Shown: in pieces, positions 18,963 through 45,125 of the stretch
How the letters are laid out: each line of letters begins with the position of its first letter
Position numbering within the stretch: the first letter of the stretch is position 1
Origin: a virus
Virus record (IMG/VR): IMGVR_UViG_3300034198_006985
Coordinates: 1 to 45,125 of that record
Reading direction: 5' to 3' (one strand)
DNA length: 45,125 nt
Notes under the pieces: model-generated
Databases searched by the model: none
What the model was told of the DNA's origin: nothing
Seen by the model: the letters and a program-made list of their open reading frames with translations, nothing else
Made by a program: the position numbers and the translations under genes

Positions 18963-19175
18963 TTACCGGCCCCAATCCTCAAGGCGGGATACTCTTTCCG
19001 GTTTAGGTTTCTTTTTGGCGGGTTCTGGTCTTGGGACATAGCAAAGGGCCGCATGCTCCTTGCAATACGGCCCCTGCTTTTTTGCCTTGCCACAAAAAAA
19101 GAAATTCTGTGGGTCGCCGTCGTTAATGACAAAGCGACACGACCGGAATGTCAGTTCTAGGAACTTTACAGCCAG
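18963..19175 (-). CDS. Stand-alone GcrA C-terminal-like domain, non-canonical CTG start
   Basis: Reading the minus strand from CTG 19175-19173 gives about 70 residues with FRSCRFVINDGDPQNFFFCG and KKQGPYCKEHAALCY, followed by a Lys/Pro-rich tail ending LEDWGR. This matches the C-terminal part of GcrA (C-R-W-P-I-G-D-P ... F-x-F-C-G ... G-x-P-Y-C-x-x-H), including its Cys/His pattern. The N-terminal GcrA helix-turn-helix is absent. In Caulobacter the C-terminal region contacts sigma-70. There is no ATG, GTG or TTG in the frame, but AAGGAGG ends five bases before the CTG. The frame is continuous with the upstream gene except for its TAA, so readthrough is the alternative. Confidence 0.65.
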   Translation of the reverse strand: MAVKFLELTFRSCRFVINDGDPQNFFFCGKAKKQGPYCKEHAALCYVPRPEPAKKKPKPERVSRLEDWGR

Positions 19176-19180
19176 TCGTG

Positions 19181-19187
19181 CCTCCTT
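19181..19187 (-). promoter_or_regulatory. Ribosome binding site supporting the CTG start
   Basis: The minus strand reads AAGGAGG directly after the TAA at 19190-19188. It is followed by five bases (CACGA) and then CTG. A near-perfect Shine-Dalgarno at normal spacing is the main evidence that the GcrA-like frame is initiated separately rather than by readthrough. Confidence 0.6.
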
Positions 19188-19571
19188 TTACGACGCAGAT
19201 GTGTCGTCAGGATTATCTTTTTTCTTCAAAAAAGAAAGCCCCGCTGGAGATTGTTCATTAGCCAATTGGATTTGGGCCTTCATCTCCACAGCAATATCGC
19301 TGAGGTTCTGGGTCTTTGCCATCTGGCCGGCATAAGCCGCAACGGCCGCAATGTTGGAATAAGTCGCATCCGCAGCCGGCGCTTCAGGCATACGAGCCAG
19401 TCGATCGGCAAGGGCTACGATGGCTACGTCGTAAGGCGATACATCCCGATTGAGAAGGATGGATGAGATGATCGCGCTGCGGCGGTAAATTTCATCTTCT
19501 TGGGCGGAGCGGCCCCCGAGCAAGTTTACCGTTTTGGATGCTTGGCTCAGAATTTCCGTATACGTCGTCAT
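19188..19571 (-). CDS. Hypothetical helical protein in the recombination operon
   Basis: The 127-residue protein is mainly helical (YTEILSQASKTVNLLGG, RRSAIISSILLNRDVSPYDV, AIVALADRLARM) with a charged C-terminus ending DNPDDTSAS. No family is recognised and there is no membrane segment. GGAGA precedes ATG at good distance. Its first 80 bases overlap the end of the gene before it, and the GcrA-like frame follows directly after its stop, in the same frame. Confidence 0.6.
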   Translation of the reverse strand: MTTYTEILSQASKTVNLLGGRSAQEDEIYRRSAIISSILLNRDVSPYDVAIVALADRLARMPEAPAADATYSNIAAVAAYAGQMAKTQNLSDIAVEMKAQIQLANEQSPAGLSFLKKKDNPDDTSAS

Positions 19572-19824
19572 TTATATCTCCATGTTCTCTATAAGTTTGA
19601 ATTTTCCCTATGTGGGAACTGTTTAACACTATGTCTTCTCTGTCTACCCAAACCCAGATGCCTGAGTCATTTTGCCGTCGATAGAGAAGGCGACCGACAA
19701 CAAATTCCTGTTCATTTAGAATATTGCAAAACTCATCAATGCTGCTTGATTCATGCTCAATCGTGATCTGATGTACAGAATTTCCGTTAGCTGACGGCAT
19801 GTTCATCGTAATGAGAAACTTCAT
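19492..19824 (-). CDS. Hypothetical small beta-rich protein
   Basis: From ATG 19824 the protein has 110 residues starting MKFLITMNMPSANGNSVHQI. It has a beta-rich N-terminal part with FVVGRLLYRRQNDSGIWVWV and a polar C-terminus. AGGAGGG sits four bases before this ATG, which also overlaps the stop of the HNH gene (ATGA); both facts favour it over the ATG 42 bases upstream. The last 80 bases overlap the next gene in another frame. Function unknown. Confidence 0.58.
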   Translation of the reverse strand: MKFLITMNMPSANGNSVHQITIEHESSSIDEFCNILNEQEFVVGRLLYRRQNDSGIWVWVDREDIVLNSSHIGKIQTYREHGDINDDVYGNSEPSIQNGKLARGPLRPRR

Positions 19825-20168
19825 TTTTCCCTCCTGACTACTGAGCCATCCATTTTTTTCTTCCACATAGAATTTTTCCCGCCGGGTAATGGGTTTCTCG
19901 TTTTCTTAGCGCCAATGTGCCGTTGGTGGATACGTTTGACTTTAGCGATCAGCGGAGCATCAACACGAGCAGTATGGTCCCTATGGCACTTACGGTGAGC
20001 CACGAGCCAATTACTATCGTCGTCTCGTCCTCCGGCTTCCAAGGGTATTTCATGTGAAACATCCCAATCCTGACCTGCAACAACCTTGAGGCTGCACATA
20101 TGACATATACCATTGTGACGGGCAAAGATGTCTGCCCTCATTTTGGCTGTAATTCTGACTCGTTTCAT
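19821..20168 (-). CDS. HNH endonuclease
   Basis: The 115-residue protein has the HNH layout: a basic N-terminus (MKRVRITAKMRADIFARHNG), CHMCS (first Cys pair), DVSHEIPLEAGGRDDDSN and the final HRKCHRDHT. The His of DVSH, the Asn of DDSN and the His of the KCHRDH segment form the metal-dependent nuclease core. HNH enzymes nick or cut DNA. In phages they act in packaging, recombination or as free-standing homing endonucleases. Its place within the ERF/YqaJ operon suggests recombination or repair, but homing cannot be excluded. It overlaps both neighbours by four bases. Confidence 0.82.
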   Translation of the reverse strand: MKRVRITAKMRADIFARHNGICHMCSLKVVAGQDWDVSHEIPLEAGGRDDDSNWLVAHRKCHRDHTARVDAPLIAKVKRIHQRHIGAKKTRNPLPGGKNSMWKKKMDGSVVRREK

Positions 20169-20446
20169 TGGATTGATTTAGTGTTCCAGTAACCAATGCC
20201 GTTTGCATCCGCATATTCAATGTTATTGACCAATTGATTTTTAACCATCTCGGCAACTTCAAGAGCGGGTGCTTTTTCATTGGAACAAGTCAAAAGTATT
20301 TCTGTCATTGCCATTGCTAGCGTCGTGATAGCGGGGATGGGAAGTAATGGACCGAGAGACAACAGGACAGCCTGTTTCCGTGCTATGATTTCATCAAAAT
20401 CCTCATGCTCTTCAGGGTTCAGTTTATTCTCTTGTTCTTCAGCCAT
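20165..20446 (-). CDS. Hypothetical protein in the recombination operon
   Basis: The 93-residue protein has an acidic N-terminus (AEEQENKLNPEEHEDFDEII), a hydrophobic middle (VLLSLGPLLPIPAITTLAMA) and a polar C-terminus. The middle could be a weak membrane segment or a buried helix. GAGGG lies just before ATG, and its stop overlaps the HNH start. No family is recognised. Confidence 0.55.
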   Translation of the reverse strand: MAEEQENKLNPEEHEDFDEIIARKQAVLLSLGPLLPIPAITTLAMAMTEILLTCSNEKAPALEVAEMVKNQLVNNIEYADANGIGYWNTKSIQ

Positions 20447-20452
20447 TTTCCC

Positions 20453-20773
20453 TCACAATTTCATTTCAGCGCGTTTGGTCGCCTCATGGCTCTGCCACTC
20501 AGAGAACCTCATGCGGATATATTCAAGCTGAACTTTAAGCCGTGCAGCCTTTTCACGGGCTTCTACCATTTCTTTGATGTAGGCATGCCAATCCTCAGAA
20601 GCCTTGATTATCATCTCAGCTTTGCTGACTGGCATATCCCCCAAACTAGCCATCCTTTTGGCAAGGACGGCACTCTTGGTTTCTTCCAGTATGTTTGCCG
20701 CAGAATCGGCATCAACCCACTTCTTGGCTATGATGCGGAATTGCTCTGATAGGGGCAGGTTTTGGTCGATCAA
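20453..20773 (-). CDS. Hypothetical coiled-coil protein in the recombination operon
   Basis: The 106-residue protein is strongly helical, with a charged coiled-coil C-terminus (EMVEAREKAARLKVQLEYIR, then FSEWQSHEATKRAEMKL). The start appears to be TTG 20773, overlapping the TGA of the SSB-like gene (TTGA). It lacks a clear ribosome site and would depend on coupling; an internal ATG near residue 41 is a less likely alternative. The fixed position after an SSB-like gene suggests a DNA-transaction role, which is inference. Confidence 0.55.
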   Translation of the reverse strand: MIDQNLPLSEQFRIIAKKWVDADSAANILEETKSAVLAKRMASLGDMPVSKAEMIIKASEDWHAYIKEMVEAREKAARLKVQLEYIRMRFSEWQSHEATKRAEMKL

Positions 20774-21018
20774 AACGGTATATCCGCGTCTTCAGTTGGT
20801 TCTGGTTGAACTTTGCTTGGCGCATCATTCCTTGATTCCTTTGGACGAACGGAAAGAGAAATCCATTTCTCGCCGTCATCTTTTGTCTTGGTCCAACCAT
20901 TGATCCAAAATTCTTGACCGCTGACCATAATTGATCCCGATAGAGTCGGGTCTGTTTCAGACCGTTTACGGTTATTTTTGAACAAGCTGCCAGAATTATC
21001 ACGTTTCTCGTATGCCAT
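20770..21018 (-). CDS. Small SSB-like protein with an acidic DIPF tip
   Basis: From ATG 21018 the protein has 82 residues: AYEKRDNSGSLFKNNRKRSE, then SGSIMVSGQEFWINGWTK and EKWISLSVRPKE, a small beta-barrel-like domain seen in phages. A disordered linker follows and ends in DADIPF. The acidic tail finishing in I-P-F matches the C-terminal peptide of bacterial single-stranded DNA-binding proteins that recruits repair enzymes. With ERF and YqaJ genes alongside, a role in coating single-stranded DNA or recruiting host repair factors is likely. GAGG precedes the chosen ATG; an earlier ATG at 21033 overlaps the YqaJ gene. Confidence 0.68.
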   Translation of the reverse strand: MAYEKRDNSGSLFKNNRKRSETDPTLSGSIMVSGQEFWINGWTKTKDDGEKWISLSVRPKESRNDAPSKVQPEPTEDADIPF

Positions 21019-21019
21019 A

Positions 21020-21637
21020 TTACACCTCTGCATATTGGGTTTGAAGTTTTGATATTTTGATATTCAATTCATCAAGGAATTGGATAACCTCGTTTTCAAG
21101 CTGCGTCATCAGAACTTGGTCGGATACGACACGTATAATCTTCATCCTCATATGTTCAGGCAAACGAGGATCGTAAGACACGTAATCGCACCATTTCCGC
21201 TCTGTGCATGCCATTTGCCACATCATCTGGGTAACATATTTTTCCGGTATTCTACTCGTTAATAGGAAATCCAGATGTGTAGCTGTATTGGGGCATTTGA
21301 TCTCAACAAGACCATCGTCCCCTACAAGCCCATCAGGTGATGCGCCTGCATTATCAATAAGAGCATGGGGGACAAAACCCACCTCATTCACAAGGACCCC
21401 TTTTGCAGCTTCATAAGCCGCTCTTGCGTGAGGCTCCTGTTCTGTCCCCCATACCATTGCAGCATTCTGGTAGAACTCCCCTTTAGTTCCAGTCAGACGC
21501 TCACAAATCAATTCAGCCATGTAATTATCGCGGCTGGTTGAATAGCCAGATTTAGTTTTGGCTACCACATCTGCAACACGCGAGGCGGTAACTTTGCCAA
21601 GGCGAGCCGTAAACCATTCTTCTGTGCGTTGTTCCAT
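21020..21637 (-). CDS. YqaJ-family recombination exonuclease
   Basis: The 205-residue protein has the YqaJ/lambda-exonuclease motifs: EEWFTARLGKVTASRV (residues about 6-21), GTEQEPHARAAYE, GASPDGLVG and LVEIKCPN, where the Asp and the E-x-K form the PD-(D/E)XK metal site. WQMACTERKWCDYVSYD completes the core. These enzymes resect double-stranded ends 5'-3' to give single strands for an annealing protein, here the ERF gene two positions upstream in the operon. ATG 21637 overlaps the upstream TGA (TGATG) and is preferred over the in-frame GTG 21640. The length is normal for phage members. Confidence 0.88.
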   Translation of the reverse strand: MEQRTEEWFTARLGKVTASRVADVVAKTKSGYSTSRDNYMAELICERLTGTKGEFYQNAAMVWGTEQEPHARAAYEAAKGVLVNEVGFVPHALIDNAGASPDGLVGDDGLVEIKCPNTATHLDFLLTSRIPEKYVTQMMWQMACTERKWCDYVSYDPRLPEHMRMKIIRVVSDQVLMTQLENEVIQFLDELNIKISKLQTQYAEV

Positions 21638-21930
21638 CACAACTCAACCTTTGTCCATGCAACAATATCCCCACCGTTTCCGGTCATGTCCCAACTCAAT
21701 TCAGATGGTTTATCAATTTGGGTCATGCCGTCGCTCATTAGCACAGCAATGTTGTCTTTATAGTTTCTAAGCACTTTTGGAATTGTGTTGGTTATATGCG
21801 GTTGCCAATGCTGATCGCCTAAAGCCGATAGTCTGGCGTAATTGACCAACCAAAGAAACATGCTTCTCAACCGCTTTAATTCTCTCTCGCGTTTTTCTGA
21901 CTTTGATAAAGATTTCTTTTTTTTAGACAT
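21637..21930 (-). CDS. Hypothetical basic protein between ERF and YqaJ genes
   Basis: The 97-residue protein has a very basic N-terminus (MSKKKKSLSKSEKRERELKR), a helical LRSMFLWLVNYARLSAL segment and a polar C-terminus. The basic N-terminus would suit nucleic-acid contact. The start overlaps the ERF stop (TAATG) and the stop overlaps the YqaJ start, so it is tightly coupled to both. No family is recognised; a recombination accessory role is inferred from position. Confidence 0.6.
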   Translation of the reverse strand: MSKKKKSLSKSEKRERELKRLRSMFLWLVNYARLSALGDQHWQPHITNTIPKVLRNYKDNIAVLMSDGMTQIDKPSELSWDMTGNGGDIVAWTKVEL

Positions 21931-22529
21931 TACGCAGACTTCCCATCTTTCTCGGCCGCAATCTTTTTCAATTCACTCCGGTAATCTTCAGAAATTGAAT
22001 TACGCTCGTCAGGTGTCAGGGTTTTCCACCAATTGTTCAAACCGATTGTGCCCTGATTGGCCGCCTCATTGGCAGATGATTTCAATTTATTGCTGATTTC
22101 AGGTTGCGCCTTTTTTACTGGTTGCACGGCTACAGGTGTGCGGTCCACAGCGCCATTACCGTCATCATCGTCGGCGGCAATTCCAAGCATGGACATCAAT
22201 CCGTAACGACGGCCATAGGTGATTCCTGAACCAATCCCATGAGCATCCCATTTGTTTACGGGCATGCGGAGCGTCTCGGCAATGAACTCGCCTGATTTGT
22301 GGATGATCATTGTCTCGACCTCAACGGACCCATCCAAAGTGCGCGGCAATTGCACGATCGCCAGATCATTGACGGCAAGCGGTTCCTTGATTGCGGCACG
22401 GACGGCGGCGAGGTCTGCGTATCTTGATTTAAAGGCAGGGTTCAGCCCTGTCTTAGTAGCATCATCAATCTGCCCCTGAGCCTTGGCTAAAGCCGTTGCC
22501 AATTCAATAATGCTATCGCTCTGTCTCAT
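21930..22529 (-). CDS. erf: ERF-family single-strand annealing protein
   Basis: From ATG 22529 the protein has 199 residues. It contains FKSRYADLAAVRAAIKEPL (residues about 30-48) and HGIGSGITYGRRYGLMSMLG followed by IAADDDDGN (about 100-128), the defining motifs of the ERF superfamily (P22 Erf). The C-terminal third is linker-like then helical (LTPDERNSISEDYRSELKK). ERF proteins anneal complementary single strands during phage recombination and genome circularisation. GGAGA precedes this ATG; the frame extends further upstream without support. It is the first gene of the minus-strand operon, just downstream of the divergent control region. Confidence 0.88.
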   Translation of the reverse strand: MRQSDSIIELATALAKAQGQIDDATKTGLNPAFKSRYADLAAVRAAIKEPLAVNDLAIVQLPRTLDGSVEVETMIIHKSGEFIAETLRMPVNKWDAHGIGSGITYGRRYGLMSMLGIAADDDDGNGAVDRTPVAVQPVKKAQPEISNKLKSSANEAANQGTIGLNNWWKTLTPDERNSISEDYRSELKKIAAEKDGKSA

Positions 22530-22561
22530 GTGTATCTCCAATATCAATTTGTGGTGTGATT

Positions 22562-24739: not shown

Positions 24740-25552
24740 ATGAATGTCCTTGATCTTTTTTCTGGCATTGGTGGGTTTAGTTTGGGGCTTGAAAGGGCGG
24801 GGATGAAAACCGTTGCTTTTTGTGAGATTGATAAAAAGGCTCGTCAAGTTTTGAAAAAGCATTGGCCTGATGTGCCAATTTTTGATGACGTTAAAACTCT
24901 GACCAAGGAAAAGTTGGATGAGCAAACCATTACAGTTGATGTTATTTGCGGAGGATTCCCTTGCCAAGACATATCCCTCGCAGGGCAAGGAGCAGGACTT
25001 GCAGGTGAACGAAGCGGACTCTGGTTCCAATTCCATCGCCTCATTGAAGAAATTAGACCGTCGTGGGTCATCATTGAAAACGTCTCAGCCCTTCGGTCTA
25101 GAGGATTGGATCAAGTTCTCCGGTCGCTCTCTCAGATCGGGTATGATGCGGAGTGGCACTGTATTACCGCTTCCGCCGTTGGTGCGCCTCACCAAAGGGA
25201 CCGCATCTGGATTGTGGCCTACTCCAACCGCGACGGAGAATGGGCCGGGGATGGATCGGAACAACCCAAGGGGAATACAGCAGGGCAACGCATTAGCGAC
25301 AGCAGTAGCTTGGGAATCAAAGGGATGGTGGCCAACGCCCTGCGCCAGAGATTGGAAGGACAATGGAAAATCTCCGGCGGAATTAGCGAGGAACAGCAAA
25401 ACATTAGCGACTCATGCTGGTGGGCAATTGAACCCGCAATGGGTAGAGTGGCTTATGGGATTCCCGGTAGGGTGGACAGACTTAAACAATTAGGAAATGC
25501 TGTTGTGCCTCAAATACCGGAATTGATTGGCAAGGCTATAATGGCATGTTAG
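24740..25552 (+). CDS. C5 cytosine-specific DNA methyltransferase
   Basis: The 270-residue protein carries the ordered C5-MTase motifs: I DLFSGIGGF (residues 4-12), IV GGFPCQDIS with catalytic Cys near 75, VI ENV near 113, VIII QRDR near 152, and X LGNAVVPQ near 252. It methylates cytosine in a short DNA site, probably protecting phage DNA from host restriction. The segment between VIII and X (about 165-235) is shorter and more degenerate than a usual target-recognition domain. That segment also encodes another protein in the +1 frame. No partner restriction enzyme is seen. Confidence 0.88.
   Translation: MNVLDLFSGIGGFSLGLERAGMKTVAFCEIDKKARQVLKKHWPDVPIFDDVKTLTKEKLDEQTITVDVICGGFPCQDISLAGQGAGLAGERSGLWFQFHRLIEEIRPSWVIIENVSALRSRGLDQVLRSLSQIGYDAEWHCITASAVGAPHQRDRIWIVAYSNRDGEWAGDGSEQPKGNTAGQRISDSSSLGIKGMVANALRQRLEGQWKISGGISEEQQNISDSCWWAIEPAMGRVAYGIPGRVDRLKQLGNAVVPQIPELIGKAIMAC
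24918..25493 (+). CDS. Gene nested out of frame inside the cytosine methyltransferase
   Basis: A 191-residue frame lies wholly inside the methyltransferase gene in another phase. It contains LFAEDSLAKTYPS (residues about 9-21), a DRRGSSLKTSQ segment, SGMMRSGTVLPLPPLVRLT, two W-P-T-P motifs (LWPTPTATE and WWPTPCARDW) and LNPQWVEWLMGFPVGWTDL near the C-terminus. These motifs recur in a phage/prophage protein type I recall beside C5 methyltransferases, so the frame is not a chance shadow. The function is not known to me; a methylation-linked role follows only from context. ATG lies after GTTGGATG with a weak ribosome site. Confidence 0.68.
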   Translation: MSKPLQLMLFAEDSLAKTYPSQGKEQDLQVNEADSGSNSIASLKKLDRRGSSLKTSQPFGLEDWIKFSGRSLRSGMMRSGTVLPLPPLVRLTKGTASGLWPTPTATENGPGMDRNNPRGIQQGNALATAVAWESKGWWPTPCARDWKDNGKSPAELARNSKTLATHAGGQLNPQWVEWLMGFPVGWTDLNN

Positions 25553-25687: not shown

Positions 25688-26110
25688 ATGGCCCCTTGGT
25701 TCAGATTATACTGTGAAGTTATTGACGACCCTAAGGTTCAGGAACTCTCTCCTGAAACGTTTCAGGGTTGGATTAACGTGCTTTGCTTGGCTGGAAAGAA
25801 CAAGGGAGTCCTCCCTTCCATGAAGCACATGATGTTCTCTCTCCGCCGGTCGGAAGCCGAGGTCAAAAAGTTGTTGGCAGAGTTAATCTCTTGTGGGCTT
25901 TTGGACAAAAAAGGTGATATAATTCAACCACATAACTGGCAAAATCGGCAATTTATTAGTGACAGTTCTACGGAAAGAGTGAAACGTTTCAGGCAACGTT
26001 TCCGTAACGTTTCAGGTAGCGTTTCTGAAACGTTGAATGAAACGGACCAGATACAGATACAGAAACAGATACAGACTGTCTTAAAGAATCCGTTCCAAGA
26101 AGAAGTCTAG
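25688..26110 (+). CDS. Replication initiator-like protein containing an iteron array
   Basis: The 140-residue protein has a winged-helix-like N-terminal domain (WFRLYCEVIDDPKVQELSPE, FQGWINVLCLAGKNKGVLPS, EVKKLLAELISCGLLDKKGD) and the motif STERVKRFRQRFRN. This layout is typical of phage replication proteins of the DnaD/DnaT-like type. The C-terminal third is low-complexity (SGSVSETLNET and QIQIQKQIQT), where the DNA forms evenly spaced repeats. Helicase and primase genes follow, completing a replication module. It is short for the family and has no second domain, so a role in loading the downstream helicase is inference. AGGAAGG precedes ATG. Confidence 0.68.
   Translation: MAPWFRLYCEVIDDPKVQELSPETFQGWINVLCLAGKNKGVLPSMKHMMFSLRRSEAEVKKLLAELISCGLLDKKGDIIQPHNWQNRQFISDSSTERVKRFRQRFRNVSGSVSETLNETDQIQIQKQIQTVLKNPFQEEV
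25751..25766. repeat. 16-bp palindrome matching the iteron core
   Basis: CCTGAAACGTTTCAGG is a perfect 16-base palindrome inside the initiator gene. It carries the ACGTTTCAGG core of the array at 25981-26045, which lies about 230 bases downstream. Confidence 0.7.
25981..26077. repeat. Iteron-like array and 6-bp tandem repeats, candidate replication origin
   Basis: ACGTTTC occurs at 25984, 25996 and 26007 and GCGTTTC at 26019, spaced 12, 11 and 12 bases. Inverted copies follow at 26025-26034 and 26035-26045. Immediately after lie five CAGATA-like hexamers (26048-26077). Direct repeats inside the initiator gene, followed by a low-complexity tract, recall the lambda origin inside gene O. The repeats are also coding, so protein-level low complexity is the competing explanation. 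Confidence 0.6.
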
Positions 26111-26170
26111 GTTATCTAGTAAGGCTCTAGGTTAGGTATACGCGCGAGGGCGGCAAGGAGAAACTTGACA

Positions 26171-27658
26171 ATGGATTTACGCAAATATCAAACCGACGCG
26201 ATCAGCCAACTTAGGCGTTCTCTTGGCACGGGCAAGAAGCGGCCTGTGGTCATGGCTCCGACGGGAGCGGGTAAGACGATCATCGCGGCCTCAATCATCC
26301 GCATGGCTCGTGAGAAGGGCAGCAAGGTGATCTTCTGCGTCCCAATGCTGTCGCTGATTGACCAGACGGTCAAAAGGTTTCAGGCGCACGGCATCTGGGA
26401 CATCGGGGTCATGCAAGGTTTCCATGAGATGACCGACTGGACCCAGCCCGTTCAGGTTTGCTCAATTCAGACCCTTATGCGGCGGAAATTGCCAGAAGCC
26501 GATTTGGTTATCATCGACGAATGCCATGTGATGTTCAAATTTTTGGCAGAGTGGGCCAATTACGATGATTGGAAGTCGGTGCCGTTTGTCGGGCTGTCGG
26601 CTACGCCTTGGCAAAAGGGCATGGGTAAAATCTGGGACTACCTGATCATCGCTACGACGACCCAACAACTGATCGACATGGGCCACCTGAGCGATTTTAA
26701 AGTTTTTGCGCCGGCACACCCAGACCTGAGCGGGGTCAAGACTGTTGCGGGGGATTACGATCTCAAGGGGTTGGGCGCTGCAATGGATCAGGGCGCGTTG
26801 GTGGCGGATATTGTTTCAACTTGGTTGGAGCAAGCTGAGAATCGACCAACGGTTTGTTTTGCGGTTAATCGGGTTCACGCCAAACACATCCAAGCCAAGT
26901 TTGAGGCAGCTAAGGTTCCCACGGCCTACATGGACGCTTACACGAGATTGGACGAGCGGAACGATATTGTCAGGGACTTTGAGAGCGGCAAGGTCAAGGT
27001 CATCTGCAACGTCGGGGTTTTGACCACAGGTTTTGACGCTGATGTGCGGTGTATCATTCTGGCACGGCCTACCAAGTCGGAAATTCTTTACGTCCAGATG
27101 ATCGGTCGTGGTCTACGCACAGCCAATGGCAAGGACCACTGCCTGGTGCTTGACCACAGCGACACAACCTTGCGTTTAGGGTTTGTTACGGACATTCATC
27201 ACACGGAACTTGACGACGGGTCCAAGCGTTCTACTCGCAAGGAGAAAACAACTTTGCTCCCCAAGGAATGCTCAAAGTGCGCTTTCCTCAAACCGCCGAG
27301 AATGCGTCAGTGCCCAAACTGTGGGTTTGTGGCTGAGGCCGTCGATCGGGTGGAAAACATTTCTGGTGAACTTTACGAGTTGACCCGTGAGAAGCACGCA
27401 AAGCCTAAAGATTGGACGATTGAGCAGAAACAGGAGTTCTACTCGGAATTGCTGCTTTACGCCCATCTGAGGGGCTACAAGCGGGGTTGGGCCTATCACG
27501 CCTACAAGCATCGGATGGCTGTGGGCCCCGCCAATGTGCTCTTGGAACGGATGGCAAAACATCTCAGCGAGAAGACTGAGGCTTGGATCAGGCACTACCA
27601 CATCGCCAAGGCTAAGGGACGGGAGCGGTCAAATGTCGTTTATGCAAATTCCCGCTAG
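26171..27658 (+). CDS. Superfamily 2 DEAD/DEAH-type helicase with zinc finger
   Basis: The protein has about 495 residues. Helicase motifs in order: DLRKYQTDAI (Q-like), APTGAGKT (Walker A, about 28-35), DECH (Walker B, about 116-119), LSATPW (motif III, about 141-146), NVGVLTTGFD (motif V) and QMIGRGLR (motif VI, near 308). CSKC and CPNC near 367 and 380 form a zinc ribbon, followed by a helical C-terminus. It likely unwinds DNA at the phage origin or forks, being placed between initiator and primase. ATG 26171 was chosen; TTG 26165 lies only four bases after AAGGAG, so the start is not certain. Confidence 0.86.
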   Translation: MDLRKYQTDAISQLRRSLGTGKKRPVVMAPTGAGKTIIAASIIRMAREKGSKVIFCVPMLSLIDQTVKRFQAHGIWDIGVMQGFHEMTDWTQPVQVCSIQTLMRRKLPEADLVIIDECHVMFKFLAEWANYDDWKSVPFVGLSATPWQKGMGKIWDYLIIATTTQQLIDMGHLSDFKVFAPAHPDLSGVKTVAGDYDLKGLGAAMDQGALVADIVSTWLEQAENRPTVCFAVNRVHAKHIQAKFEAAKVPTAYMDAYTRLDERNDIVRDFESGKVKVICNVGVLTTGFDADVRCIILARPTKSEILYVQMIGRGLRTANGKDHCLVLDHSDTTLRLGFVTDIHHTELDDGSKRSTRKEKTTLLPKECSKCAFLKPPRMRQCPNCGFVAEAVDRVENISGELYELTREKHAKPKDWTIEQKQEFYSELLLYAHLRGYKRGWAYHAYKHRMAVGPANVLLERMAKHLSEKTEAWIRHYHIAKAKGRERSNVVYANSR

Positions 27659-28613
27659 GGACCTCGCTCGGGGGCGGTGGCGGATTATCCTGACCTCCTT
27701 GGGGATGAACGCTAACTTTTTGGGCAAGAACCGATCGGGTTGCCCCCTTTGTGGCGGCAAGGACAGGTTTAGGTTTGACGACAAAGACGGACACGGAAGT
27801 TATTTTTGCAACCAGTGCGGCTCAGGAGACGGATTCATGCTCGCTCAAAAATTTACGGGCCGTCCGTTTGCCGTTATCGCTGACATGGTAAGAAACCTTT
27901 TTCAAGAACCGATCCCAGAAGGAAAAACCAAATTGACCCGCAGGGAGGACAGGCAACATACGTATGATCGCATTTGGAACGCCGCACAGCGACCTTCAGA
28001 GGGTGGGCCGCTACACGCCTACCAGACAAATAGATTTGGCCGCCCTTGGCCTTCTAATGCAATCCGTGAGGCCATCCAGTTCAAGCATTTGGAGAGCAAT
28101 TCTGTCTGTGCGGCTCAAATTGCGCGGATCACGGATGCCACGGGACAGTTGGTCAATCTGCACGTGACTTACCTTACAAAGGACGGCAAGAAGGCCGATG
28201 TGACCCCGCAGAAGAGGGTTTTGTCGGGCAAGTTGCCTGAAGGGTCAGCGATCAGGATTTGGCCTGCTGCTCGTATCATGGGTATTGCTGAGGGAATTGA
28301 GACGGCCATTGCGGCGGCGGTTCTATTCAGGATGCCAGTTTGGGCGGCGATCAACGGTTCTTTACTGGCAAAATGGAACCCGCCTGAGCAAGCGGAGATA
28401 ATTCATATTTTTGGTGACAATGACGAGAATTTTACGGGTCAGGCCAAGGCGTATGAGTTGGCGCACAAAATTAAATTATTAGGGAAACACGAGGTTCATG
28501 TTAAAATCCCACCCCATGCAGGGTGGGACTGGAACGATGTGATGTTGGACAAATTAAAGGCTCACCAAGAGTCGGAAATCCAATCGTCACAAGCTGTTAC
28601 GATGGAATCATGA
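27633..28613 (+). CDS. Primase with CHC2-like zinc finger and Toprim domain
   Basis: From ATG 27633 the protein has 326 residues. The N-terminal zinc-binding domain shows CPLCGGKDRFRFDDK and FCNQCGSGDGF (Cys residues near 37, 40, 60 and 63), the pattern of P4/T7-type phage primases. A linker leads to a Toprim domain with MGIAEGIETAIAAAVLF (about 216-232, with catalytic Glu) and HIFGDNDEN (about 259-267, acidic pair). It makes RNA primers for replication. GGGAG precedes the ATG, which overlaps the helicase end by 26 bases; the frame extends further upstream only as helicase-overlapping shadow. It has no helicase domain of its own. Confidence 0.86.
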   Translation: MSFMQIPARDLARGRWRIILTSLGMNANFLGKNRSGCPLCGGKDRFRFDDKDGHGSYFCNQCGSGDGFMLAQKFTGRPFAVIADMVRNLFQEPIPEGKTKLTRREDRQHTYDRIWNAAQRPSEGGPLHAYQTNRFGRPWPSNAIREAIQFKHLESNSVCAAQIARITDATGQLVNLHVTYLTKDGKKADVTPQKRVLSGKLPEGSAIRIWPAARIMGIAEGIETAIAAAVLFRMPVWAAINGSLLAKWNPPEQAEIIHIFGDNDENFTGQAKAYELAHKIKLLGKHEVHVKIPPHAGWDWNDVMLDKLKAHQESEIQSSQAVTMES

Positions 28614-29129: not shown

Positions 29130-29618
29130 ATGGCACGTGGTAAAAAGCAAGCAGGCGAGGAGCAGCAACCCCGTACTGTGGGACGGCCTACTCTCTATGA
29201 TCCATCATACTGCGATCGGGTCTTAGCTATGGGTAAGCAAGGTATGAGCCTTGTTGAGATGGCTTCTGAACTGAATGTCAGTAGGGCTAATCTCTACGAT
29301 TGGGCAGAGCAGAATCCTGAATTTTCTGCATGTCTTATACGCGCACGCGAGGAGAGCCAGGCATGGTGGGAGAGAACAGGGCGGCTGGGGGTGTTCAAGG
29401 GTGACAACGAGATCGACTCTAATTTGTGGTTCAGGAATGTAACCAAGCGGTTCCGCCAAGATTGGGGTGAGCAGAGACAGATAGAGGTAGACTCAGGAGA
29501 AATGATTGAGGCCAAGCCGATACCGATTGAGGCGGATAGGCTATCTCCTGAAAAGCGGGAACTTCTGAAGGAACTTTTATTAGAATTGAGAAGTATTGGG
29601 GAGGCTGAGAATGGCTAA
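29130..29618 (+). CDS. terS: Terminase small subunit
   Basis: The 162-residue protein begins with a basic stretch then RPTLYDPSYCDRVLAMGKQG, MSLVEMASELNVSRANLYDW (a helix-turn-helix, residues about 40-59) and the C-terminal LWFRNVTKRFRQDWGEQRQI, a pattern typical of phage small terminases. It recognises phage DNA and brings it to the large subunit, encoded about 2.5 kb downstream with small genes between. The C-terminal helix may contact the large subunit. The separation from terL is larger than usual. Confidence 0.82.
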   Translation: MARGKKQAGEEQQPRTVGRPTLYDPSYCDRVLAMGKQGMSLVEMASELNVSRANLYDWAEQNPEFSACLIRAREESQAWWERTGRLGVFKGDNEIDSNLWFRNVTKRFRQDWGEQRQIEVDSGEMIEAKPIPIEADRLSPEKRELLKELLLELRSIGEAENG

Positions 29619-31889: not shown

Positions 31890-32158
31890 AAGATCAGAAA
31901 GTAGGGGGCGGTTGGCATTGGTCCTTTGGATGGCTGCGTCGTCCAGAGTGCGATAACCATTACGGCTATTGCTACGAGGAGCCATCGGGCGACCTGATTT
32001 ACACCAACCGTAAGGACCACCAGCACATAGCTTATTTGGACAAGTGGAAGGATGGGGAGACGGGCGAGTTCTTCTGCTCGTTTAACCAGATGAGAACAGG
32101 CCAAAATTTGATTTTGCATGGCCGCAGAAAGATACCGTCCCAAAAGATAAAGCCATGA
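31886..32158 (+). CDS. Hypothetical small protein before the large terminase
   Basis: A GTG start at 31886 (overlapping the previous stop, GTGA) gives 90 residues, with GGGWHWSFGWLRRPECDNHY, several Trp, Tyr and Cys residues and a basic C-terminus (RRKIPSQKIKP). An earlier ATG at 31796 would add 30 residues of low-information sequence that overlap the previous gene, so the later GTG is favoured. The stop overlaps the large terminase start. Function unknown. Confidence 0.52.
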   Translation: MKDQKVGGGWHWSFGWLRRPECDNHYGYCYEEPSGDLIYTNRKDHQHIAYLDKWKDGETGEFFCSFNQMRTGQNLILHGRRKIPSQKIKP

Positions 32159-33816
32159 GGAATTTCTTTTTCACGGGCCCAAATGGAGAAAAGATCGCAA
32201 TCAACCCGACCATCAATCGGGCTGAGAAGGGCGAGTGCGAGGAGGATTTGTACACCTTTTTGCGGTACGGATGGCGGTTCATAGATCCAAGCCCGTTTGT
32301 TGAAGGGGCACCAATACAGGCAGTAGCCGAGCATCTTCAGGCTGTGGTTGATGGGGACATCAGAAGGCTGATCATCAACATCCCACCCCGTATGGGCAAG
32401 TCATCCATAACCTCGGTGGCCTTTCCCGCATGGACATGGATACAGAGAAATGCGAGCCCGACATCGGGGCCTGGCGTTCAGTTCCTCCATGCGTCCTATG
32501 CCCAAAGCCTCGCTCTGAGAGATAGCGTGAGATGCCGACGCTTGATTGAGAGCCCGTTCTATCAGGGTTTCTGGGGCGATGATTTCAAGCTGACGGGCGA
32601 CCAGAACACCAAGACGAGGTTTGATAATAATAAGGGCGGATCACGCCTATCGACCTCGGTCGGTTCAGCCCTGACGGGTGAAGGCGGCAATATCATTGTG
32701 GTTGATGATCCCAATGCGGCTCAGGAAGCCTTTAGCGAGGCGACAATCAATAGCACGATTGAGTGGTGGGACAGTGCTCTGTCCACCCGTCTGAATGATC
32801 CGAGATCAGGTGCCTTTGTGGTGATTCAGCAAAGACTGTCAGAAGAAGACCTGACGGGGCATATCCTGAGTAAGGACACGGGGGAATGGACCCATCTGTG
32901 CTTGCCGATGAAATTTGAAAAGGACCGATCGTTCAAGACTGTCATCGGTTGGGAAGACTGGCGTGAGGAAGAAGGTGAACTTCTCTGGCCGGAACGGTTT
33001 GGCGAGCGGGAAGTGACAATCCTTGAAAAGCAGCTTGGCCCATTTGCGGCGGCTGGTCAGCTTCAACAAAGACCTGAACCAAAGGGCGGTGGTATTATCA
33101 AGCGCGATTGGTGGCAGTTATGGGATCAGGAAAACTTTCCTCCCATTGAATATATCGTGGCAAGCCTTGATACGGCGTTTACGACTAAGACAGAAAACGA
33201 CTTCTCGGCCATGACGGTGTGGGGCATTTTCTCTGGCGGGGATAACAAAGCGGTTGCGACGCGGGTCGCCTCAAAGAGCGGTTCTTATACCATTACAGAA
33301 GTGACCAGAACCTACAGCGAGGAGCATCCCAAAGCGATCCTCATGTATGCGTGGCAAGACCGATTGGAGTTCCATGATCTTGTGAAGAAGATTGCGGAGA
33401 CGATGAAGAACTTGAAGGTCGATAAGCTGCTTGTTGAAAACAAGGCATCGGGTCCGAGCATCATTCAGGAATTGAAACGGATTTATAACCATCTGCCTTT
33501 TGCTGTGGAGCCAATCGACATTGCCAGAACAAGCGCCCATGCAGGGGTAGACAAGGTAAGCCGTGCCCATGCAGTGGTGCCTTTGTTTGCCGGCGGATTG
33601 GTTTACGCTCCCGATCGCTCGTGGTCGGATATGGTGATTACGCAATGCACCACATTCCCTCGTGGCAAGCATGACGATTTGGTCGATACAGTTACAATGG
33701 CTCTCCAATATATGAGAAGGTCAGGCCTGATTATCCGGGGCGAGGAATGGACTGCCGACATAGAAAAGGGAATGGAATTTACAGGTTCCGCTCCACCTCC
33801 CCTTTACGCAGTGTAA
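32155..33816 (+). CDS. terL: Terminase large subunit
   Basis: The 553-residue protein has an N-terminal ATPase with NIPPRMGKSS (Walker A, about 75-84) and NIIVVDDP (Walker B, about 179-186). The RNase-H-like nuclease domain has SLDTAF (near 337), VENKASG (near 425) and HDDLVDT (near 505) supplying the acidic metal ligands. It powers DNA translocation into the prohead and cuts concatemers. The ATG overlaps the previous stop (ATGA). The TAA lies inside a small hairpin. The length is normal. Confidence 0.92.
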   Translation: MRNFFFTGPNGEKIAINPTINRAEKGECEEDLYTFLRYGWRFIDPSPFVEGAPIQAVAEHLQAVVDGDIRRLIINIPPRMGKSSITSVAFPAWTWIQRNASPTSGPGVQFLHASYAQSLALRDSVRCRRLIESPFYQGFWGDDFKLTGDQNTKTRFDNNKGGSRLSTSVGSALTGEGGNIIVVDDPNAAQEAFSEATINSTIEWWDSALSTRLNDPRSGAFVVIQQRLSEEDLTGHILSKDTGEWTHLCLPMKFEKDRSFKTVIGWEDWREEEGELLWPERFGEREVTILEKQLGPFAAAGQLQQRPEPKGGGIIKRDWWQLWDQENFPPIEYIVASLDTAFTTKTENDFSAMTVWGIFSGGDNKAVATRVASKSGSYTITEVTRTYSEEHPKAILMYAWQDRLEFHDLVKKIAETMKNLKVDKLLVENKASGPSIIQELKRIYNHLPFAVEPIDIARTSAHAGVDKVSRAHAVVPLFAGGLVYAPDRSWSDMVITQCTTFPRGKHDDLVDTVTMALQYMRRSGLIIRGEEWTADIEKGMEFTGSAPPPLYAV

Positions 33817-34499: not shown

Positions 34500-35261
34500 A
34501 TGACAGCCCCAAATATAATCCACTTTATCTATCCGGTTTGGCACAACACCAGACCGCTATCTTTTATGAACTACATTGCCGTTAAGCGGGCAAAAGAGAT
34601 TCATAAGCCTGATGTAATCAAGTTTTGGATAAACAAAGAACCAATGCCGTCGCCCTATTGGGCAGCCATTGAGGGATTGGTTGAGATCAATACCATTCCA
34701 ATGGATGGAGAATTTCAGGGGGTAAAGATTGAATACCCTCAGCTTCAATCCGATGTAACGCGCCTTGAGATACTGCACCGCGAGGGCGGCATTTACATGG
34801 ACACGGATATGTTTTTGTTAAAGGACCTGTCCGGTTACATGGATGATGACTTTTCCATGTGCCTTGAGCCATCAGATGATTCAGCTTGTAATGCGTTGCT
34901 GATTTCCAAAGCGGGGTCTGACTTTACAGGCTTGTGGCTAGATCAAATGGCGGAGGCTTTGCAGAACAAGGTCTGGGCTTATGGCGGCGTAATTATGCCT
35001 TTTAGACTGTATCAAGAGCGGCCTGATCTTGTGATGATGCACTCAAGTGATCACTTTTGCCCCTTTGGATTGGACAAGGATTGGCTGTTTTCCACTGATC
35101 CCAACATAATCAATGAGGCGGAAGAGTTGATACAGAAGTCAACTGCGGTTCATGGGTTTGAGACATTCTTTAGGAATACCCGACCAGAAGTAAGCGGCGC
35201 GTGGTGCCGAGAAAACGACTCTTTATTTAGTCGTATTGTTCATGGAGCATATGATGGCTAA
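34500..35261 (+). CDS. DXD-motif glycosyltransferase
   Basis: The 253-residue protein begins TAPNIIHFIYPVWHNTR and contains SDVTRLEILHREGGIYMDTD (residues about 83-102), the DXD metal-binding region of the glycosyltransferase sugar-binding family related to capsule and mannosyl transferases. It transfers a sugar to an unknown acceptor. A methyltransferase lies shortly downstream, which suggests a small glycan-modifying group next to the terminase and portal genes. Confidence 0.8.
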   Translation: MTAPNIIHFIYPVWHNTRPLSFMNYIAVKRAKEIHKPDVIKFWINKEPMPSPYWAAIEGLVEINTIPMDGEFQGVKIEYPQLQSDVTRLEILHREGGIYMDTDMFLLKDLSGYMDDDFSMCLEPSDDSACNALLISKAGSDFTGLWLDQMAEALQNKVWAYGGVIMPFRLYQERPDLVMMHSSDHFCPFGLDKDWLFSTDPNIINEAEELIQKSTAVHGFETFFRNTRPEVSGAWCRENDSLFSRIVHGAYDG

Positions 35262-43338: not shown

Positions 43339-45125
43339 ATGTCCGAGATCGCCAAAAAGGCCAGAGAGGCCATGAAGGCAAAGGCTAAGGCCCGTGCCGA
43401 TCGTCCTATTGAAAAAGTCGATTCGTCTGATTGGACCCCTCCCCCGCTTTTGAACGCGGATGTGAAGACGGGTATGCGTCCGGTGTCGCGTCGTGCTTAT
43501 CGCAAGGGTGGCAAGGTTTCTGGCGTTGCGGCTAAGGTTAGAGCGGATCGCAAGCCCCGTAAGGCAGGCGGCTCGACGGAACAGCCTATCGTGGATCGGT
43601 ACGTCAACCGTGATCTCAAGAAGGCCAATGAATACCGTGATGGCAAGAAGCATATCGGTGGGTTCAAGCATGGCGGTCGTCCCCATAAGCAAGTTGGCGG
43701 CGGCGCACCAATGGACATGGGCTCAATGGATGATTTGACGCCGTATCAGCGTCAGATGGTTTCAAAAGGCCTTGATCCATTCCAAGATGAACGCCCCTCA
43801 ACGATGGTCATTAAGAAGACTACAGTTGTCGCTCCCCGTGGTGGCGCACCTGCAAAGGGTGACAAGGTTCCCCTTCCCCCTCGCCGTCCAGACGATTTGA
43901 TGAAAAAGGGCGGTCGCGCCAAAAGGGCTGATGGCGGTCCTATGATTGACCCTCGCCTTGGTATCGTTGACCCACGCGCTCTCAAGTTTGCTCAAAATGT
44001 CGTGACACCGGGCCTTAAAAAGGGCGGTAAGGTCAGTCACATGGAATGGGAACATTCCAAGAAGGATTTAGCTGAAGACCGCAAACTTGCTAAAAAGCAT
44101 GGCATGAGCCTTGAGGCTTGGGAAAAGTCATCATTGGACGCCAAGCACGATAAGCAACAGTCCATGAAGGGCTTGAAGCACGGTGGACGCACCAAGAAGC
44201 AAGACGGCGGTGGCGTATTTACCGGCCCTAGCTATCCCGGCAAGATTCCCGGCGTTGTTCCGGGTGGCCGTATCGCCAAGAAAAAAGGCGGTAGCACCAA
44301 GTCAAAGAAGGGTGGCCACGTAAACATCAGCATCAATGTTGGTGGCAAGAAAATGCCACAAGATCAGCAAGATCAAATGATGCAAGGCCAGATGATGCCT
44401 CCGCCCCCACCCCCTCCGGCAATGATGCCTCAGGGTGGACCTCCTATGCCTCCTCCCGGCTTGATGCCTCCTCCGGGCATGCCTCCAATGGGCATGTATA
44501 AAGGTGGTCGCATACGCAAAGAGGTTGGCGGTGCTTCAACTACCGCACCCGCAACAACCGCACCCGTTGCTTCTGGAACGGCGGCACCTGCGGCATCCAC
44601 AATGCCTTCATGGGTTTCTCAATTAGGCCCAGCCGCATTGCCAATGTTCCAAGCGGCTAATCTACCGACATCCTTTATGCCTCGACCTACAACGCCTGCG
44701 CCTACAGCGCCGGCTCCGACAGCGGCTCCCGCCCCTGCGGCAACGACCACAGCGGCAGCTGCCCCTGCAACCAATCAGGGCATTACTCTGGATTCAAGGC
44801 AGCAAAAGAAACTAGCTAAGTTCCAACAAGACGCTCAAAAATTCATGCAAAAGGTTCAATCGGGTCAAAAAGAGCCCAATCAAAAAGAACTTTCCAGATT
44901 GATGAAGTCTTATTCTAAGACTGGCTTGCCTTTGACGATCCCTGGTCAGTCGCAAGCTGCCGCATCAAGCGACAAGCCGACTTGGGCAATGAAGAAGGGC
45001 GGCCGTATTAAAAAGGCATTTGGCGGCGCATTTGGCGGTGCAATGGGCGCGCCTACATCAAATGCCATGATGACACCAATGGGTGGTCGTTCTATTCCAA
45101 TGCAAGCAATGGATGTTGGTCGCGG
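43339..45125 (+). CDS. Lys-Gly-Gly-rich virion-block protein (3' end outside window)
   Basis: The frame is open from ATG 43339 (AGGAG upstream) to the right edge, at least 595 residues. It is highly basic with about fifteen K/H-G-G-R/K elements (YRKGGKVSG, FKHGGRPHKQ, KKGGRAKRADGG, LKKGGKVSHM, KHGGRTKKQDGGG, YKGGRIRKEVGG, KKGGRIKKAFGG), a Pro/Met-rich stretch (MMPPPPPPPAMMPQGG), and an Ala/Thr/Pro-rich linker. There is no catalytic motif. The basic repeats would suit binding DNA or other virion proteins. It lies where scaffold or capsid genes would be expected next. Function unknown. Confidence 0.65.
   Translation, partial: MSEIAKKAREAMKAKAKARADRPIEKVDSSDWTPPPLLNADVKTGMRPVSRRAYRKGGKVSGVAAKVRADRKPRKAGGSTEQPIVDRYVNRDLKKANEYRDGKKHIGGFKHGGRPHKQVGGGAPMDMGSMDDLTPYQRQMVSKGLDPFQDERPSTMVIKKTTVVAPRGGAPAKGDKVPLPPRRPDDLMKKGGRAKRADGGPMIDPRLGIVDPRALKFAQNVVTPGLKKGGKVSHMEWEHSKKDLAEDRKLAKKHGMSLEAWEKSSLDAKHDKQQSMKGLKHGGRTKKQDGGGVFTGPSYPGKIPGVVPGGRIAKKKGGSTKSKKGGHVNISINVGGKKMPQDQQDQMMQGQMMPPPPPPPAMMPQGGPPMPPPGLMPPPGMPPMGMYKGGRIRKEVGGASTTAPATTAPVASGTAAPAASTMPSWVSQLGPAALPMFQAANLPTSFMPRPTTPAPTAPAPTAAPAPAATTTAAAAPATNQGITLDSRQQKKLAKFQQDAQKFMQKVQSGQKEPNQKELSRLMKSYSKTGLPLTIPGQSQAAASSDKPTWAMKKGGRIKKAFGGAFGGAMGAPTSNAMMTPMGGRSIPMQAMDVGR

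Follow-up and report, generated by a model that had tools for sequence, protein, structure and literature searches.

Positions 25751-26077 of the IMG/VR virus record IMGVR_UViG_3300034198_006985, analysed here over its full stretch of 45,125 bp (the window), are very probably a phage replication origin located inside the gene of its own initiator and composed of iterons and a sequence-specific unwinding module. The design of an origin within an initiator gene is already known. Comparisons between related loci support the presence of two DNA-level modules in this gene, whose order and spacing are conserved. The initial annotation had proposed a candidate origin in an initiator gene at this place, a proposal now supported by a predicted winged-helix initiator, by the replication block to which it belongs and by the precedents of phages 80alpha, TP901-1 and SPP1.

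The initiator gene (25688-26110, + strand) encodes a protein of 140 aa that matches two PHROG families, phrog_3926 (replication initiation protein, E 1.1e-13, over residues 2-120, corresponding to the N-terminal domain) and phrog_186 (DnaD-like, E 1.1e-8). In Pfam, PF09681 (Phage_rep_org_N) reached 16.7 bits on this product, under its curated cut-off of 23.3, and none of the lambda O-type families was matched at E up to 0.01. The product consists of a winged-helix domain (residues 1 to ~97) and a short basic, low-complexity tail whose coding sequence holds both repeat arrays, the C-terminal domain being absent. The AlphaFold model is a winged helix (pLDDT 82 overall, >90 for residues 11-80), and the top group of its PDB fold matches includes the RepA_N plasmid initiators 4pql (Z 8.1), 5kbj (8.0) and 4pt7 (7.9). 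Since unrelated winged helices tie with these matches at Z of about 8 (MntR 8.1, LexA 7.7), the fold by itself is no proof of an initiator. Among the predicted viral structures of BFVD, those matching at E ~1e-4 were a replisome organiser, DUF1376 and Lin1244-like proteins. The initiator gene is followed by genes for an SF2 (DEAD/ResIII) DNA helicase (26165-27658, + strand; phrog_16, E 3.6e-93) and then for a Zn-ribbon/Toprim DNA primase (27534-28613, + strand; PF08273 and PF13362; phrog_510, E 4.3e-61). On the basis of its sequence, the product is a predicted initiator-type winged-helix protein sitting in a replication block. Directly upstream of the initiator lies a C5-cytosine DNA methyltransferase gene (24740-25552; the Pfam match covers the N-terminal half of the model only), and two exact TCTAGGTTA copies, 20 bp apart (26106-26134), span the initiator stop codon and the gap before the helicase gene. 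Further downstream, a glycosyltransferase with a DXD motif (Gly_transf_sug, 34500-35261) is encoded between the terminase and portal genes.

The first module is an iteron-like array of AACGTTTC units (25980-26045), recovered by repeat search and by the lag analysis of 73 loci described below. Direct ACGTTTC/GCGTTTC units start at 25984, 25996, 26007 and 26019 (spacing of 12, 11 and 12 bp), inverted GAAACG copies lie at 26027 and 26039-26045, and an outlying copy of the array unit forms a 16-bp perfect palindrome, CCTGAAACGTTTCAGG, at 25751-25766, as seen by direct sequence check. The direct units, the inverted copies, the palindrome and the five CAGATA-like hexamers right after the array had all been described in the initial annotation, and each was found at its place. 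The units occupy all three codon phases. Between 25975 and 26047 the number of matching 7-mer pairs is 35, whereas codon shuffles gave 2.0 on average and 20 at most, and none of 2,000 shuffled genes reached the observed repeat score, under a null that fixes the amino acids and draws synonymous codons from the phage's own usage, thus preserving amino acids and not dinucleotides across codons. No other repeat cluster in the window is as dense as that in 25688-26110: the best 75-nt segment of the whole 45 kb scores 36 and corresponds to the array, while the runner-up elsewhere scores 16, and 11 of the 36 occurrences of AACGTT/CGTTTC/GAAACG in the window fall in the 80-bp array stretch, with three more at the palindrome. 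The second densest cluster, of the CCTCCTCCxGGCATGCC type (44400-44520 and 44990-45125), probably encodes a Pro/Gly/Met-rich protein. The initial annotation had also placed the copies on one face of the helix. The near-helical periodicity holds roughly, but the period is ~11.4-11.5 bp and not 10.5; therefore, the copies drift round the helix, the repeat that fits best being one of 23 bp.

The second module, proposed to serve in unwinding and loading, is the CAGA array (26048-26077, + strand), formed by the hexamers CAGATA, CAGATA, CAGAAA, CAGATA and CAGACT, which start at 26048, 26054, 26060, 26066 and 26072 and encode QIQIQKQIQT. Nowhere else in the window is CAGA clustered so densely. In the window alone, the number of CAGA is not significant (5 against 2.66 in the codon-shuffle null, p ~0.10), and the significance of the array therefore comes from the relatives. 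Its GC content is 0.38, compared with 0.45 in the rest of the gene, and versions built on 5-mers, such as CAGAG, reach 60% GC. As the array is just mildly AT-rich, plain melting of a low-stability sequence does not explain it.

Relatives were fetched by aligning the N-terminal domain, trimmed before the arrays and as protein only, which yielded 80 loci; nearly all of their linkers present AACGTT-type units first and CAGA repeats second. Exact 5-mer self-matches, counted over the unit regions of 73 distinct loci and compared with codon shuffles, peaked at lags of 11 bp (135 observed, 10 expected), 12 bp (167 and 60), 23 bp (212 and 14) and 34 bp (84 and 8), so that the lags of 11, 23 and 34 bp stand at 11-15 times the synonymous-shuffle null; as the relatives are phylogenetically non-independent, these are not counts of events. 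Of these lags, 12 is a multiple of three and 11, 23 and 34 are not, showing that the DNA spacing is kept and not an amino-acid repeat; the refuting condition set in the initial annotation, namely relatives with the amino-acid repeat but without the spacing, was thus checked with an outcome that favours its proposal. The 8-mers of each locus's own array also recur in the domain-coding part of the 73 relatives (81, against 26.1 +/- 6.1 and a maximum of 50 in codon shuffles), and the palindrome at 25751 therefore has counterparts elsewhere. A single-protein search of genome contigs retrieved no relatives, blasting the array as DNA against phages produced just short matches around the CAGATA repeats, and a search for phrog_3926 across the class of a Pseudomonas genome matched in two genomes only.

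In 69 distinct linkers of these relatives, CAGA occurs 6.39 times per linker against 1.89 in the codon-shuffle null, about 3.3-fold, and 68 of the 69 exceed their own null. The spacing is 6 (228 cases) or 5 (76 cases). All three codon phases are used (317, 81 and 43 cases, phase 1 thus accounting for 317/441), and the encoded peptides vary accordingly, from DTDT to QIQI or QSRAEQSRA. The array is inverted in three loci (L182, where it encodes SVSVSVSE, L198 and L147), so its strand polarity is not fixed. In L147 and L214, it lies past the initiator stop codon: the ORF ends just after the domain, and the units together with the CAGA or inverted TCTG repeats are apparently non-coding (L147:2501-3100, L214:2501-2950). 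An indel error in the metagenome contigs could be the cause of the out-of-frame arrays of L147 and L214, but not of the inverted arrays of L182 or L198, which are in frame and need no such error. The array is thus kept while the peptide changes frame, changes strand or leaves the ORF, and in these comparisons the CAGATA hexamers prove to be a second, conserved module.

Complete short initiators, of 105-166 aa compared with the 140 aa of the window, were found in L147, L178/L179, L187, L198 and L214, and a homologue of the window's SF2 helicase adjoins every one of them. Beside long initiators (at least 180 aa), no window-type helicase homologue was found within the stretches examined, some of which are short. 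In the named relatives with long initiators the initiator gene is followed by DnaB or by a helicase loader, and among named phages more widely the neighbours are DnaB, a helicase loader or a DnaC-like loader. This gene content suggests that a C-terminal domain and the block of SF2 helicase and primase are alternative routes to completing initiation. The short-initiator/SF2-helicase variant would also be an experiment of nature, with an array no longer tied to coding.

Similar arrangements are present in other initiator families. Scanning viral contigs for CAGATACAGATACAGA gave 107 ORFs of at least 100 aa, of which 79 belong to one linked set of initiator-like proteins. The proteins with this string differ in their Pfam N-terminal domains, namely DUF1376 (once together with a DnaT domain), Lin1244-like (below cut-off) and DUF6291. 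Their units differ as well (e.g., CGAACGCAA, CAACG..CGTTG or GTGACGTCAC), and in the 99 nt upstream of the string in 77 of them the lags of 10-11 and 22 bp exceed the null (at lag 11, 220 observed and 21 expected). Since the set was found via the CAGATA string, these upstream units are its sole independent observation. The DUF1376 initiators of L054, L017 and L032 carry the same linker arrays, with a DnaT domain in one of them, which suggests that DUF1376, a family of unknown function in Pfam, may be the N-terminal domain of phage initiators.

In a Firmicutes-type set of PF09681 initiators (75 distinct linkers, the named relatives having nearly always a Firmicutes host, chiefly Staphylococcus, Streptococcus, Listeria or Bacillus), TAGATA/AAGATA hexamers come after units of the kind TAACGTTAC or GTGACGTCAC. 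Over the null, TAGA is enriched 2.28-fold in this set, CAGA 1.26-fold and TAA 1.36-fold, compared with 3.25-fold for CAGA and 0.80-fold for TAGA in the window-type set. Base composition is ruled out as the driver of this difference, because the C fraction, compared at the same GC of 0.40-0.45, amounts to 0.94 for the window's set and to 0.26 for the Firmicutes-type one, and there is no GC trend within either. Host phylum as the sole driver is not clean, as some Firmicutes loci carry CAGATA, namely a Lactiplantibacillus PF09681 initiator, a Brevibacillus initiator and a Sporomusa locus. The layout is not universal, since the linker of Bacillus phage 031MP002, a PF09681 relative, has no obvious array. 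Two other leads on CAGATA were discarded: in a DnaA-trio reading just every second triplet would fit, and a paper on BstA aba, which surfaced in a text search for CAGATA, is unrelated.

Several known systems resemble this organization. The O protein of lambda binds iterons within gene O and opens the neighbouring A+T-rich region (PMC5043065), in agreement with the precedent invoked in the initial annotation. As proposed for the window, the lambda origin has initiator-binding iterons in the initiator gene and then an opening module (PMC5043065, PMC7466680). In contrast, the lambda iterons are of ~19 bp and its second module is a plain 40-bp A+T-rich tract, whereas the window presents 11.5/23-bp AACGTTTC units and a CAGA array, and the gene after the initiator is an SF2 helicase in the window but a P-type loader in lambda. 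In 80alpha, the deletion of ORF20 cannot be complemented in trans, from which its authors infer an origin inside the gene (PMC5499656). The annotated rep_origin of this phage contains iteron-like AAACCGTTAAYGG-type repeats and then short A/T-rich ACTAATAAT repeats. In ORF20 (L433:2440-3210), the iteron-like repeats give way to four 15-bp repeats of the ACTAATAAT type, so that its second module is ACTAATAAT-like and not CAGA. The ORF20 protein bears no visible resemblance in sequence to that of the window. The replisome organiser of Staphylococcus phage phi11 has a linker with TAACGTTAC-type units. The replisome organisers of Lactococcus phages TP901-1 (ORF13) and Tuc2009 (Rep2009) bind direct repeats located within the genes that encode them, and these repeats constitute the origin (PMC8965321, a review), although the TP901-1 repeat, TTTTCCAGATGTGG, differs from that of the window and the annotation is DnaD-like. 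Likewise, gp38 of Bacillus phage SPP1 binds direct repeats in gene 38 (oriL) beside an AT-rich unwinding element, and loading and priming have been reconstituted for this phage (PMC6316719). A further origin, oriR, and a DnaB-type helicase with a loader set SPP1 apart from the window, and the likeness is one of description and not of sequence comparison. Finally, in ori2 of Vibrio cholerae, RctB recognises ATCA repeats as single strand in the unwinding element beside the initiator sites (PMC10797057); this initiator and its motif are unrelated to those of the window and provide a mere analogy for the action of the CAGA array. In the literature searched, which covers few subscription papers and is therefore weak evidence of absence, no description of a conserved CAGA/TAGA module was found.

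From these observations, a mechanism can be proposed in which several initiator copies would bind the AACGTTTC units spaced by ~11.5 bp, each 23-bp iteron comprising two of them, and the palindrome farther upstream, at 25751, would be an outlying initiator site. The nucleoprotein complex formed on the units would strain the adjoining CAGA array, which would open, and the opened CAGA strand would be held single by sequence-specific contacts to CAGA. The helicase and primase would enter at the opened array. In this step, the SF2 helicase and primase would probably replace, in strand separation and priming, the C-terminal domain and the DnaB/loader of longer relatives. By default, the reader of CAGA would be the initiator itself, through single-strand recognition like that of RctB and plasmid Rep proteins (PMC10797057). 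We give a rather low probability to the more general idea that a CAGA/TAGA array with 5-8-nt spacing is shared by phage intragenic origins and read by the primase or helicase instead of the initiator, its first base reflecting host primase specificity; such reading by a conserved replication component would account for an array that persists with unrelated initiators and iterons, whatever its frame or strand. Cumulative GC skew, a check put forward in the initial annotation, speaks neither for nor against the origin: the minimum is at the contig end in the window, and at 42.7 kb in PP9W and 2.8 kb in Silvergun, where gene strand switches, and the skew is uninformative because it tracks the strand of the genes, both in the window and in these two complete relatives. 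A run of probable minus-strand ORFs (~19100-22550) accounts for a local skew dip ending near 22.6 kb.

Within the origin reading, the CAGA/TAGA arrays could alternatively be primase start sites and not an initiator-bound unwinding element, which we consider doubtful. The template preferences of DnaG are CTG in gammaproteobacteria and CTA/TTA in Firmicutes (PMC5204125), which correspond to CAG and to TAG/TAA, respectively, on the top strand. The contrast between CAGA in the window-type set and TAGA in the Firmicutes-type set, not due to base composition, and the sharing of the array by unrelated initiators fit this idea. Nevertheless, short-initiator phages with their own primase, the window included, retain CAGA; the Lactiplantibacillus, Brevibacillus and Sporomusa loci have CAGATA; the AAGA units have no matching trinucleotide; and a single CTG would suffice, an array not being required.

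Other explanations do not treat the arrays as an origin. The protein could repress its own operon by way of the arrays, which would then be an operator or a partition-like site, with replication starting elsewhere. Winged-helix proteins are commonly autoregulatory, the palindromic AACGTT units are operator-like and the fold matches include repressors, but an array at the 3' end of the gene, ~300 bp from its start, is badly placed to be an operator, no explanation is offered for the CAGA module, the PHROG families are replication initiators with helicase and primase as neighbours, and the precedents of 80alpha, TP901-1 and SPP1 point to replication; this explanation is therefore improbable. Still less credible is that the low-complexity tail is conserved for protein reasons and that the DNA repeats are its by-product. 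Acidic linkers are common and most relatives show the DT/ET reading (phase 1, 317/441), yet the codon-shuffle nulls, the use of three phases, the diversity of QI, SR, SV and DT peptides, the lags of 11, 23 and 34 bp, the inverted arrays and the arrays beyond the stop codon all stand against it, and for most loci the codon-level tests already refute it. Repeats near phage control genes can also serve packaging or recombination. That the array is a packaging (pac) or recombination hot-spot sequence and not an origin has, beyond this general precedent, nothing in our analysis pointing to it; the genes of the small and large terminase subunits (29130-29618 and 32155-33816) are away from the array, which accompanies initiator genes in genomes of many different architectures, making this explanation equally far-fetched.

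The reading of the region as an origin with two modules has several implications. Units with a period of ~11.5 bp and then CAGA/TAGA repeats in an initiator linker would provide marks for locating origins in many uncultured phages. The odd tails of phage initiators, among them DTDTDT and QIQIQ, would be explained as DNA signals and not as protein features, and the layout hints at what DUF1376 and comparable unnamed families may do.
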